DNA of 64,000 bases from Actinomycetota bacterium. Lineage in GTDB: Bacteria > Actinomycetota > Geothermincolia > Geothermincolales > RBG-13-55-18. Under the pieces are notes generated by a model. It made no database searches, was not told where the DNA came from, and saw nothing but the letters and a program-made list of their open reading frames with translations. The position numbers and the translations under genes are program-made. Shown in pieces: positions 2,177 to 9,948 of the stretch (the first letter of the stretch is position 1; the number at the start of each line of letters is the position of its first letter). The stretch spans positions 171,347-235,346 of the forward strand of contig JASEFK010000002.1 in assembly GCA_030019255.1 (NCBI GenBank). The letters are read 5' to 3'.

Positions 2177-2692
2177 TCACAGTATTTTCCGGAGGGCGAC
2201 CTCCAGCTCCTCGGGGCGGCGGGAACCGAAGAGCACCCTCCTCCCGTCGCGCAGCCTGAGCTGCACGCCACGGTTCCCGGAGACGTTGAAGGCCCTTCCT
2301 CCCCTCCAGCCCCAGCGTATCCCCCACCCCCCGTACTCCAGGATGGGACGGTAGGTCCTGGCCTCCGCCTCCGCTATCTCCTCCCGGGCCAGGCGATGCC
2401 AGCGCCGGTGGAATGGATAGTACCGGTAGTGGAGGCCGTCCTCCCGCACCTCCACCACCAGGCGGGCGGAGAGGAAAAGCCAGGGGAAACCGATGCCCAT
2501 GAGGAGCCAGGTGAGGACCATCAGCCAGTCGGGGGAGGGCCGGTTCCCCAGGGGCCTGCGCAGCACCACCTGGCGTAGGAAAGCGTACCAGGCGAAACCT
2601 GCCGTCCCCAGGACCAAGGCGTATATCCACCACTGGTGGAAACGCTGTTCCTCGCGGAAGATGCACTTCTCACCGGTCGTCGTCTCGCTCAT
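2177..2692 (-). CDS. Small membrane protein with two TM segments and PH-like C-terminus
   Basis: A 171-residue protein with two hydrophobic stretches near residues 20-40 and 55-75, then a soluble part with alternating beta-like segments (VVEVREDGLHYRYYPFHRRWHRL and a later R-rich strand set). This layout resembles small membrane proteins with a PH-like or DUF6141-like domain, though I name the family only tentatively. The chosen ATG at 2692 overlaps the 3' end of lgt by 23 bases, implying co-transcription and coupled translation. Function is unknown; a membrane-surface role is inferred only from topology. Confidence 0.75.
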   Translation of the reverse strand: MSETTTGEKCIFREEQRFHQWWIYALVLGTAGFAWYAFLRQVVLRRPLGNRPSPDWLMVLTWLLMGIGFPWLFLSARLVVEVREDGLHYRYYPFHRRWHRLAREEIAEAEARTYRPILEYGGWGIRWGWRGGRAFNVSGNRGVQLRLRDGRRVLFGSRRPEELEVALRKIL

Positions 2693-3479
2693 GTCCTTCG
2701 CCCTCCGTGTCTCTCGAACCGCTCGACAGGGTAGCGGGTTCCGGTTCCCTTCTCGCTCTCCTTTCACGGTACCATACCAGGGAGAGGAAAATAACGGCGG
2801 CCGCCACGCTGGTCACCTGGAAGAAGATGCCTGCCGACGATTCGGCGTGGTAGCGGAAGAACTCGTTGAGGAAGCGCACCACGCCGTAACCCCCCACGGC
2901 CAGCAGGAAGAGATCCCAGTCCCCGGCCACGCTTTTCCTTAAGCGCAGGAGGAAGAAGAAGAGGGCCAGGTCCAGGAGAAGCTCGTAGAGCTGGGTGGGA
3001 TGCACCGCCGTGCTCGACCCCGGGAAGGTCACCGCCCAGGGCAGCCTGGAGGGCTTCCCCCCGCAGCAGCCGTTGAGGAAACATCCCACCCGAGCCACGG
3101 CCAGGGAGAGGGGCAGGGTGAGCCCCACGGCGTCGGCCACCTTCCCCGCCGGGAGCCCCATTCTCCTCACCGTCAGCGCGCAGGCGGGAACGGCCAGGGC
3201 GAGCCCGCCGTAGAAGACCAGCCCCCGCATGTTGAGGTCGAAGGCGGAAAGCCAATCCGGGGAGAACTCCCTCCAGTGCCCGAGGACGTAAAAGAGGCGC
3301 GCCCCCAGAACCCCGCTCACCGCTGCCACCGCCCCCACCGGGTAGATGGCCGACCCGTCCAGCCTCTTGCGCCTCAGCTCCCGCCCGGCGACCAGGACCC
3401 CGGCCAGGAAGGCCAGGAAGAGGAAGACCCCGTAGGAATAGACGGGGAAGGACCCAATGTGGAAAAGGACGGGACGCAC
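2670..3479 (-). CDS. lgt: Prolipoprotein diacylglyceryl transferase
   Basis: Lgt moves a diacylglyceryl group from phosphatidylglycerol to the lipobox cysteine of prolipoproteins in the cytoplasmic membrane. The sequence has about seven membrane segments, the N-terminal IGSFPVYSYGVFLFL, the signature-region variant AVARVGCFLNGCCGG and the conserved HPTQLYE motif. A GTG start at 3479 gives 269 residues and the usual N-terminus of the family, with GGGAG upstream; an ATG at 3521 would add a basic 14-residue leader and is the alternative. A PASTA lipoprotein, a likely substrate, is encoded divergently 324 bases away. The short membrane-protein gene downstream overlaps its end. Confidence 0.92.
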   Translation of the reverse strand: MRPVLFHIGSFPVYSYGVFLFLAFLAGVLVAGRELRRKRLDGSAIYPVGAVAAVSGVLGARLFYVLGHWREFSPDWLSAFDLNMRGLVFYGGLALAVPACALTVRRMGLPAGKVADAVGLTLPLSLAVARVGCFLNGCCGGKPSRLPWAVTFPGSSTAVHPTQLYELLLDLALFFFLLRLRKSVAGDWDLFLLAVGGYGVVRFLNEFFRYHAESSAGIFFQVTSVAAAVIFLSLVWYRERRARREPEPATLSSGSRDTEGEGHERDDDR

Positions 3480-3803
3480 CCCGGCATCACTCCCTTTTAC
3501 CCGACTTCCCCTTCGCCGCATCCGCACCGCCCCCTGCCGGCGAGAGCATCGCCGACGGGAGGTGGATCGGCGAAACCGGACGCCCCGGGACCGAGGCCGT
3601 TTAAAGTCTAACAGATCCGCCCCCGGTTCACCCGTCGCCACGGCCCGCTTTTACGGCTTGGGGAGAGGCGTGAAGGTCCATGGAATTCCTTTCCATACCC
3701 GCGACGCGGCCTCCAGGTGAAAATGCCGACGGGGCGGAAATTCGGTCCAGGAATAGCTTTTCGGAAACCTGGGTAAAATAAAAACGTCAGGGAGGTGGAA
3801 GTA
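3480..3803. other. Divergent intergenic region, lgt / PASTA lipoprotein
   Basis: Both flanking genes read outward. A TAAAAT at 3774-3779 could be the -10 of the lipoprotein gene, but no convincing -35 is found. Nothing else was recognised. Confidence 0.35.
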
Positions 3804-4406
3804 ATGGAGCGAGGTTCAAGCGGAAGATGGGTGGCCGCTCCCGTGCTGGTCGCCCTGTCCCTGGTCATTCTCCTCTGCGGATGCAGGAAATCGGCACCAG
3901 AAGTTGTCGACACCGTCGTTCCGGTCCTCGGCGGACTGAGCGTCGAGGAAGCGAGGACCGTCCTCGACGGGGAGGAGCTGGATATCGGCACCCTGTCGGA
4001 AGAATATTCAGACACGGTTCCCCCGGGCCTCATCATCCGCACCCTGCTGCCGGAGGGAGAGAGGGTGGAACGGGGAACCACGGTGGACCTGGTGATCAGC
4101 AGGGGTCCTGAACTGGTAACCCTACCCGACCTGCGGGGAAAGCCCGAGGGAGAAGCGCTATCCGTTCTGCAGGGACTGGGGCTGGGGGTCAACCTCCAGC
4201 GCGCCTACAACGAGTCCGTCTCCGCCGGGCTGATCTGCGCCTCGGACCCCGCGCCCGGCACCTCCCTCAAGAAAGGGTCCGCGGTCACGCTCATCGTGAG
4301 CCTGGGATCGGCCTACGTGACCTGCCCCACCTGCGGGGGAAGGGGGACGGTCACCATCTCGGAGACCTGCCCGGAATGCGGCGGCTCCGGCGTGTGCTAC
4401 TCGTGA
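3804..4406 (+). CDS. PASTA-domain lipoprotein with interrupted DnaJ-type cysteine-rich tail
   Basis: A 200-residue exported protein. The signal peptide ends in a lipobox-like LLCGC with the acylated Cys at residue 27. Two PASTA-like repeats follow (about residues 38-102 and 103-170; cues are LPDLRGKPEGEALSVL, DPAPGTSLKKGSAVTLIVS). PASTA domains usually bind peptidoglycan fragments, suggesting a wall-associated role. The end holds two zinc-finger-like motifs, CPTCGGRG and CPECGGSG, and stops at TGA 4404-4406. Two more CxxCGGxG motifs continue in the same frame after the stop (next entry). The ATG at 3804 follows GGAGGTGG. lgt is divergently adjacent. Confidence 0.85.
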   Translation: MERGSSGRWVAAPVLVALSLVILLCGCRKSAPEVVDTVVPVLGGLSVEEARTVLDGEELDIGTLSEEYSDTVPPGLIIRTLLPEGERVERGTTVDLVISRGPELVTLPDLRGKPEGEALSVLQGLGLGVNLQRAYNESVSAGLICASDPAPGTSLKKGSAVTLIVSLGSAYVTCPTCGGRGTVTISETCPECGGSGVCYS

Positions 4407-4508
4407 AGGGGCTCCAGCGTGCCGTGCAGCACGTGCGGAGGAACGGGAACCCTGAAGCGGACGTCCACCTGCCCCACCTGCGGGGGTCGGGGCAGAATCC
4501 ACCGCTGA
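4407..4508 (+). other. In-frame continuation of the cysteine-rich domain after TGA
   Basis: Reading on in the frame of the PASTA lipoprotein gives 33 codons ending at TGA 4506-4508. They hold CSTCGGTG and CPTCGGRG with a 7-residue spacer, mirroring the CPTCGGRG and CPECGGSG pair before the stop. Together these make the four CxxCxGxG motifs of a DnaJ-type zinc domain, which strongly suggests one original domain. The stop is a single codon with no frame change. It may be a nonsense mutation, a sequence error, readthrough or recoding; the sequence alone cannot decide. Confidence 0.7.
4412..4440 (+). other. Hairpin just downstream of the in-frame TGA
   Basis: CTCC (4412-4415) can pair with GGAG (4437-4440). 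Inside it GCGTGC pairs with GCACGT around a six-base loop CGTGCA. The loop begins 15 bases after the TGA, within the range of bacterial SECIS hairpins, but GC-rich DNA forms such stems easily, so this is only suggestive. Confidence 0.3.
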
Positions 4509-4650: not shown

Positions 4651-4703
4651 GGGGGTGATTATCGGACCTTCAGCGGATACCCGCCGCGCCGTTCTCCTCC
4701 GTT
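4651..4703 (+). repeat. Direct repeat copy 1 (53 bp)
   Basis: Identical over 53 bases to 4737-4789, with a period of 86 bases. From GTG 4655 it reads a possible short peptide beginning MIIGPSADTRR and ending at TGA 4709-4711, with GGAGG at 4641-4645 in ribosome-binding position. Confidence 0.85.
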
Positions 4704-4736
4704 TAACCTGACCACCACACAACACTGCTACCTCCG

Positions 4737-4789
4737 GGGGGTGATTATCGGACCTTCAGCGGATACCCGCCGCGCCGTTCTCCTCCGTT
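4737..4789 (+). repeat. Direct repeat copy 2 (53 bp)
   Basis: Second identical copy. The same possible peptide starts at GTG 4741 and ends at TAA 4789-4791, directly abutting an ATG at 4792. It may be a translated leader or a relic of a duplicated gene end in front of the exported-protein gene. Confidence 0.85.
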
Positions 4790-4809
4790 AAATGAAATGT
4801 GAGGAGAAC

Positions 4810-8346: not shown

Positions 8347-9563
8347 CGCACTCCCTCCTTCTTCCAGTACTCCTCCAGGCTCCTCTTCACTAGGCGGTGG
8401 TGCTCGTTCAGGCGCACCGCGGGCCAGTGGCTCCCGTGGGGCAGTTTTTCCTTGAAAGCGGCCATCGCGTTCTCCACGATGAGGTCATAGGGCACGTCCC
8501 GCCCTCCCAGGCCGGTGATGATGCCGTGGATGGAGGGGCCGCCGTTCCCGTAGACCGCCGCCTTGACCTCGGAAAACAGGGGGCCCTCTAGCCCGAAGGA
8601 GACGGCGCGGTCGATGACCAGCGCCGCGCGCAGGGGAGCCAGGAGCTCCCGGAGCTCCGCCACCGGGAAGGGACGGTAGGATCGTATCCTCACCAGGCCG
8701 CAGGGATAGCCCATCTCCCGCAGTTCGTCCACCGCCACGCGGCACTCCGAGGCCACGGTGCCCAGGGCCAGGAGGGCGTATTCCGCGTCCTCCATGCGGT
8801 AGGTCTCCACCAGCTCACCGTGATAGAAGCCCAGCAGGTCCCGGTATTCCCGGGCCGCCTCGGAGATGACCCGGCGGGCGTTGTCCATGGCCTGCTGCAT
8901 GGAGAACCTTACCTCCTCGTAGTCGTCGGGGTAGATCACCGACCCGTGGGTGAAGGGATACTCCAGGTCCAGCTTCCACAGGGAGCGGAAGGGGGGCAGG
9001 AAGCGGTCCACGGCCTCCTGATCGGGGATGTCCACCTGCATGTAGGTGTGGGACATGAGGAAAGCGTCGTAGCAGACCATGACCGGTAGGATGACCCGCG
9101 GGTCCTCGGAGATGCGGTAGGCCTGGATGACGGTGTCCAGTATCTCCTGGTGGTCGGCGCAGTAGAGCTGGATCCACCCCGTGTCCCGCGCCGCCATGGT
9201 GTCCTGGTGGTCACACCAGATGTTCCATCCCGGCCCCAGGGCCCGGTTGACGTTGACCATAACCATGGGAAGGCGGACGGCCGCCGCCCAGTGCAGGAGC
9301 TCGTGCATGTAGGCCAGGCCATGGGAGGAGGTGGCGGAGAAGGCGCGCACTCCCATGGCCGCCGCGCCGATCATGGCCGCCATGGCGCTGTGCTCGCTCT
9401 CCACGGGGATGTACTCGCACTCCATCTCCCCCTCGTCTATGAAGCGGGATATCTCCTCGATGACCTGGGTCTGGGGGGTGATGGGATAGGCGGACACCAC
9501 CTCCACCCGGGAAAGGCGCGCCCCCCAGGCGGCCACGTGGTTTCCGGTCTCTACCAGCCTCAT
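8343..9563 (-). CDS. porA: 2-oxoacid (pyruvate):ferredoxin oxidoreductase, alpha subunit
   Basis: A 406-residue alpha subunit with the pyrimidine-binding and transketolase-C-like domains. Signatures are SAYPITPQTQVIEEI, YIPVESEHSAMAAMIGAAAMG, SATSSHGLAYM and a C-terminal VLLALGTV-like region (YALLALGTVASECRVAVDELREMG). It binds the 2-oxoacid and CoA together with porB. ATG 9563 is preferred because AGAGG lies six bases upstream; ATG 9569 has no room for a ribosome-binding site. The start region lies inside a duplicated copy of the porD 3' end, so its translation signal comes from former porD coding DNA. Confidence 0.9.
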   Translation of the reverse strand: MRLVETGNHVAAWGARLSRVEVVSAYPITPQTQVIEEISRFIDEGEMECEYIPVESEHSAMAAMIGAAAMGVRAFSATSSHGLAYMHELLHWAAAVRLPMVMVNVNRALGPGWNIWCDHQDTMAARDTGWIQLYCADHQEILDTVIQAYRISEDPRVILPVMVCYDAFLMSHTYMQVDIPDQEAVDRFLPPFRSLWKLDLEYPFTHGSVIYPDDYEEVRFSMQQAMDNARRVISEAAREYRDLLGFYHGELVETYRMEDAEYALLALGTVASECRVAVDELREMGYPCGLVRIRSYRPFPVAELRELLAPLRAALVIDRAVSFGLEGPLFSEVKAAVYGNGGPSIHGIITGLGGRDVPYDLIVENAMAAFKEKLPHGSHWPAVRLNEHHRLVKRSLEEYWKKEGVR

Positions 9564-9643
9564 ATTCATCCTCTTTCACCATGCTCCTGGCCCTGGTGGG
9601 GCATTCCTCGGCGCACACGCCGCACCCCTTGCAGCAGCCTTGG
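9564..9643 (-). pseudogene. Duplicated 3' fragment of porD
   Basis: About 80 bases here match 9669-9748 with one mismatch until the last few bases. They encode the C-terminal ferredoxin motif again (CKGCGVCAEECPTRA, SMVKEDEYE). The period is 105 bases, exactly 35 codons, so the copy continues in frame after the porD stop. It is untranslated as porD and provides the porA ribosome-binding site. Confidence 0.85.
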
Positions 9644-9645
9644 TT

Positions 9646-9948
9646 TTACCGGTCCTTTCCGTCCTCATATTCATCCTCTTTCACCATGCTCATGGCCCTG
9701 GTGGGGCATTCCTCGGCGCACACGCCGCACCCCTTGCAGTAGTCGTAGTTTATCCTCAGTTCCTTGGTTATGCAGGCCTCAGGGCAGTATATCCAGCAGA
9801 GCAGGCACTTATTGCAGCGCTCCTGGTCGAGCACGGGACGGAAGGTCCTCCAGGTGCCGGTCAGCCCCACGCTCCCCTCCGAGGGTACGGAGAGGGTGGT
9901 GAGGAAACCTATCTCCTCCGGCTTCTCCTTTCTCTTCCTTCCGGGCAT
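9646..9948 (-). CDS. porD: 2-oxoacid:ferredoxin oxidoreductase, delta (ferredoxin) subunit
   Basis: A 100-residue 2x[4Fe-4S] subunit that carries electrons from the catalytic subunits to external ferredoxin. The cysteine sets are CNKCLLCWIYCPEA and CKGCGVCAEECPTRA. The N-terminal GLTGTWRTFRPVLDQERC is typical of PorD. ATG 9948 follows GGGGATAAGG. The tail EDGKDR and stop differ from the duplicated copy downstream, which reads EAGRDRKPRG in the same frame, so the stop may have arisen after the tandem duplication. It is the second gene of porGDAB. Confidence 0.9.
   Translation of the reverse strand: MPGRKRKEKPEEIGFLTTLSVPSEGSVGLTGTWRTFRPVLDQERCNKCLLCWIYCPEACITKELRINYDYCKGCGVCAEECPTRAMSMVKEDEYEDGKDR

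Follow-up and report, generated by a model that had tools for sequence, protein, structure and literature searches.

A probable selenoprotein family joining PASTA repeats to a DnaJ-type zinc domain in Candidatus Geothermincolia

The nearest described counterparts of the protein reported here are the DnaJ-type zinc proteins, which include the cysteine-rich domain of DnaJ itself (PF00684; E. coli DnaJ, PDB 1EXK) as well as BSD2, PSA2, LQY1 and ZnJ6, and which share with it four CxxCxGxG motifs and two expected zinc sites. A weak thiol-reductase activity has been reported for the zinc domain of DnaJ (PMC4428491), and an oxidizing and holding activity for ZnJ6, a free-standing thylakoid protein (PMC7865324). 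Another DnaJ-like zinc protein, Anti-TRAP (RtpA), gives a weak sequence match at the CxxCxGxG motifs, below the family cut-off, and is a short, free-standing regulator with neither PASTA repeats nor selenocysteine (Sec). PASTA repeats are also found in the PknB/PrkC kinases and PBP2x, whereas the protein considered here has no kinase or transpeptidase and is a small lipoprotein with a zinc/Sec domain. Known selenoproteins with a CxxU motif (GrdA, SelW-like, AhpD-like, DUF1858, the CC/Se motif family and Trx7/PDZ) have in common with it a UGA assigned to Sec, the motif itself, an in-frame SECIS hairpin and an accompanying Sec machinery; however, we see no relation to them in sequence or domains. 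A 2026 inventory lists 119 prokaryotic selenoprotein families and subfamilies, and there is no DnaJ-type zinc or PASTA member among them (PMC13188914).

The original prediction, made from the letters of the window (the whole 64,000-nt stretch of DNA analyzed here), was of a reading frame split by an in-frame TGA within a zinc domain of four motifs, with matching 7-residue spacers and an 11-residue central gap. All of this is borne out, and reading through the TGA at codon 201 extends the product from 200 to 234 residues (table 1). The residues C-Y-S before the TGA do create the CxxU-like setting that had been pointed out (C198-x-x-U201, in the linker that joins motif 2 to motif 3), and the small hairpin noted downstream is likewise present. 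Our homologue search covered 59 genomes (the window's own and relatives), 31 of which belong to the class Candidatus Geothermincolia (Actinomycetota), and the gene occurs in 10 of these 31; the nine homologues, full or partial, have the same architecture, and the GGAGGTG upstream of the start recurs in one of them (G003). On the comparisons set out below, we consider it very probable that the UGA is decoded as Sec and, by a slightly smaller measure, highly likely that the gene as a whole encodes a selenoprotein with the architecture described (lipoprotein, two PASTA domains and a four-motif zinc domain).

Table 1. Features of the locus and its divergent neighbor, in window coordinates.
Feature	Coordinates	Strand	Basis or remark
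lgt, prolipoprotein diacylglyceryl transferase, divergent neighbor	2670..3641	-	Pfam PF01790, 163.5 bits
Ribosome-binding site GGGAGGTGG	3790..3798	+	Sequence
Predicted selenoprotein gene	3804..4508	+	Signal peptide with lipobox, two PASTA domains and a zinc domain of four CxxCxGxG motifs containing the CxxU; ATG 3804, in-frame TGA stop 4506-4508
Lipobox LCGC, predicted acylated Cys27	3873..3884	+	Cys27 nearly invariant in alignment
PASTA domain 1	3915..4106	+	Pfam PF03793, AlphaFold, Foldseek
PASTA domain 2	4116..4301	+	Pfam PF03793 (residues 105-166), AlphaFold, Foldseek
Zinc motif 1, CPTCGGRG	4323..4346	+	Residue 174
Zinc motif 2, CPECGGSG	4368..4391	+	Residue 189
C-x-x-U motif (Cys198, Sec201)	4395..4406	+	Invariant in 10/10
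UGA, assigned selenocysteine codon	4404..4406	+	TGA in 10/10 genomes
SECIS-like hairpin A, GCGTGC [CGTGCA] GCACGT	4417..4434	+	Covariation; 16 nt from UGA to loop
Alternative hairpin B, CCGTGC [AGCAC] GTGCGG	4422..4438	+	Overlaps A
Zinc motif 3, CSTCGGTG	4425..4448	+	Residue 208
Zinc motif 4, CPTCGGRG	4470..4493	+	Residue 223

The PASTA assignment is above cut-off (PF03793, 105.4 bits in two stretches), and the corresponding part of the AlphaFold model has a pLDDT of about 95 and matches the PASTA domains of the PrkC and PknB ectodomains in Foldseek; the confident model covers the PASTA part only and not the zinc domain. Cys27 is preceded by a hydrophobic stretch, giving the signal peptide and lipobox cysteine of a lipoprotein. 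The four CxxCxGxG motifs form a tandem set, from which only one cysteine of motif 4 is missing in G009, and most copies retain all eight canonical zinc cysteines, Sec not counted. The protein nevertheless departs from the DnaJ-type zinc proteins in its 7/11/7 spacers, in its setting on a PASTA lipoprotein, in the CxxU between motifs 2 and 3 and in its score, as the match to DnaJ_CXXCXGXG (PF00684) is partial and, at 24.2 bits, below the Pfam gathering cut-off of 32.7. Pfam detects no J domain in the protein, which sets it apart from the DnaJ/Hsp40 co-chaperones. Other PASTA proteins of the class carry terminal CxxCxGxG-type domains without Sec (L053 about 7767, L054 about 4695 and 5557, L055 about 8176), so the pairing of PASTA with a DnaJ-type zinc domain is broader than the selenoprotein.

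Lgt attaches lipid to lipoproteins, and an lgt-like reading frame adjoins the gene in 7 of the 10 family genomes, in two different arrangements (judged by eye; that of the window is confirmed by Pfam). We take this adjacency as context and not as proof; no redox partner gene is adjacent. By analogy with the families to which its parts belong, the product would be exported and lipid-anchored at Cys27, the two PASTA domains would hold it at the peptidoglycan of the cell wall, and the four CxxCxGxG motifs should, like those of DnaJ, coordinate two zinc ions. Zinc would thus scaffold a non-thioredoxin fold, and the C-x-x-U in the linker would act as a redox pair cycling between selenylsulfide and dithiol, most likely in thiol-disulfide exchange (as a reductase or isomerase) on envelope proteins. 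With C-x-x-U placed on the loop from motif 2 to motif 3, a DnaJ-type domain would gain a strong redox pair. Provided that Sec is inserted, we lean toward such a role, that of an envelope-anchored thiol/selenol oxidoreductase. The fuller hypothesis, of a Sec-only family in which an extracellular DnaJ-type zinc domain serves as a selenium-dependent protein-disulfide enzyme of the cell wall, working through a selenylsulfide on a non-thioredoxin fold and having no cysteine counterpart, seems to us about evenly poised.

The selenoprotein could instead use Sec as a metal ligand or a metal(loid) trap, through selenolate-zinc coordination or the binding of arsenic or mercury, and not as a redox catalyst. 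The location of Sec within a metal-binding domain is in keeping with this, and metal binding has been proposed for other selenoproteins (PMC13188914). Additionally, an ArsM-like methyltransferase adjoins the gene in G009 and a similar reading frame lies close by in G005 (L045:1526-2335 and L047:860-1684), which hints at a connection with metalloid chemistry in that genus. However, CxxU is a usual redox motif of selenoproteins, most copies lie near lgt and not near metal-resistance genes, and the presence of eight canonical zinc cysteines besides Sec in most copies means that zinc binding does not require Sec. We therefore regard a metal-binding role as unlikely, and the thiol/selenol oxidoreductase as the better account of the protein.

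Decoding of the UGA as Sec would depend on SelA, SelB, SelC and SelD, directed by a SECIS hairpin within the following codons. The original prediction had proposed a search for these genes, and the window genome proves to have all four, with selD, selA, selB and selC in one cluster in which selA and selD lie upstream and selB directly precedes the tRNA-Sec gene (selC, at G000:C14:34936; 81.8 bits). Across the family, selB (above cut-off) and selD are present in all ten genomes and tRNA-Sec in nine; it was not detected in G023, where the contig runs on for only about 100 bp past selB, and since selC follows selB in the other genomes, it probably lies off the contig. The SelD of the window genome (L041:3124-4164) is itself encoded with a UGA (SG-U-AAK), as is SelD in 25 of the 27 genomes of the class with a SelD match, which served as a positive control. 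In most SelD genes examined, a hairpin begins 16-17 nt after the UGA, and one (L201) has the loop sequence CGTGC. An ordinary gene finder would place the start of the window genome's SelD after its UGA.

The published bacterial SECIS (bSECIS) model calls for a stem of 4-16 bp, a loop of 3-9 nt with a G in its first two positions, a distance of 16-37 nt from the UGA and a minimum free energy (MFE) of at most -7.5 kcal/mol (PMC13188914). Eight genes of the family conform to it through structure A (spacing 16) and the other two through structure B; G013 and G004 are one codon shorter, and there only B has the spacing of the model. In hairpin A, 90% of the cells pair across the ten sequences, and sliding the partner strand abolishes the pairing. 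Changes on both sides of the stem (compensatory changes) occur at 4 of its 6 pairs over the ten sequences, for the most part contributed by the distant genome G023, in which the hairpin reads AGACGC[CGTGCA]GCGTCT; G010, G006 and G004 have mismatches at one or two pairs. RNAalifold recovers the helix unaided. Hairpin B, which reaches up to 9 bp in G013, G010 and G006, shows no covariation.

The MFE of the region downstream of the TGA, compared with synonymous shuffles, is not unusual for its composition (combined p 0.09). As this comparison was not significant by itself, the specific pairing was tested instead: the six-pair helix of hairpin A forms 54 of its 60 possible pairs over the ten sequences, whereas 5000 synonymous shuffles that preserve the protein averaged 35 pairs and never exceeded 44. 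When the helix was not preset (any stem whose loop has a G within its first two positions), none of 3000 synonymous shuffles reached the observed total, and the same held with one gene per genus. Synonymous change points the same way, as the part after the TGA has a lower dS than the part before it and a stretch of 26 nt is identical in five genomes though their proteins are only 56-72% identical. Given the lack of covariation in B and the unexceptional total MFE, the exact fold is left unsettled, while selection on an RNA structure after the TGA is well supported by these comparisons.

Hairpins also serve as some readthrough signals, and to that extent the structure would suit recoding of another kind, whether readthrough by a near-cognate tRNA or a functional truncated product with the UGA in a regulatory role. 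We judge this very improbable: the Sec machinery of the genome is complete and decodes the UGA of SelD, the CxxU context, spacing and loop fit the bSECIS model, and a truncated product would keep only two of the four zinc motifs, with a remainder that is conserved but untranslated. The selenocysteine alternative, which had been raised beside mutation in the original prediction, is by contrast strongly supported by the conserved TGA in its CxxU setting and the hairpin downstream.

The homologue alignment that had been proposed as a check has TGA throughout. All ten intact copies (G000, the window genome, and G002, G003, G004, G005, G006, G009, G010, G013 and G023) carry it at exactly the same codon, with Cys and other sense codons absent from the site, and the only sense codon there belongs to one decayed pseudogene. 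Among the homologous loci compared there is no Cys orthologue at the Sec position, that is, no classical Sec/Cys pair. The carriers span genera of two families of the class, from G002 (of the same genus as the window genome and matching Candidatus Solincola tengchongensis) to G023, which belongs to the other family, and identity to the window protein ranges from 36 to 72%; there is no variation at Cys198, at the Sec position or at the glycines of the motifs. Both sides of the TGA are protein-coding and under purifying selection, with dN/dS of 0.24-0.38 before it and 0.24-0.58 after it. Decayed copies with many lesions occur in G001 (L012) and G021 (L178 about 4314), and since both genomes still have tRNA-Sec, the gene has been lost independently of the Sec machinery.

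A nonsense mutation, pseudogene or sequencing or assembly error, which had been put forward as the simplest explanation, is the usual cause of a lone TGA in a metagenome-assembled genome (MAG) and would find a parallel in the decayed relatives, but its probability is negligible here. An identical TGA at the same codon in nine other genomes, separately assembled by different projects, rules out a sequencing error or a mutation private to one genome; the frame and motifs after the TGA are conserved under purifying selection; and true pseudogenes differ in carrying many stops. Two other candidates were rejected: a general reassignment of UGA, since the window gene and most of its homologues themselves terminate at a TGA, and reinitiation after the TGA, since a directly following ATG is present only in G005.

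The pattern CxxCxGxG-x-CxxU, scanned over 396 Actinomycetota genomes, returned the ten genes of the family, the decayed copy of G021 and others whose flanking frames were chance-like where inspected, and a control pattern also matches in the background. In GTDB-r220, a pattern search returned at least six Sec copies, followed among the matches listed by a sharp fall to DnaJ-type proteins without Sec. No selenoprotein model of NCBIfam matches the protein. We found no report of such a selenoprotein in the literature; a mention is possible in Haft and Tolstoy 2025 or in the groundwater MAG survey of Deng et al. 2026, both of which are cited by the inventory review (PMC13188914). Judged by its sequence features, which agree with each of the selenoprotein requirements tested, this is very probably a new bacterial selenoprotein family outside all those listed.

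New selenoprotein families are rare, and here Sec would be joined to domains that are not listed with it. The authors of deep-Sep, a current prediction tool, point out that a selenoprotein need not have Cys homologues and that the tool risks missing families of this kind (PMC12013277); as the present family appears to be Sec-only, it would be a concrete example of this blind spot. It also gives a handle on the question of whether zinc domains of the DnaJ type genuinely catalyze redox reactions. A standard gene caller would stop at the UGA and record a truncated protein of 200 residues.

Two repeats were also recorded in the window. Just 3' of the selenoprotein gene is a direct repeat of 56 nt (4651-4706 and 4737-4792; 98% identical, 86 nt apart), and a 105-nt tandem duplication (9541-9750; two copies, 90% identical) overlaps the end of a 4Fe-4S ferredoxin-like reading frame on the reverse strand.
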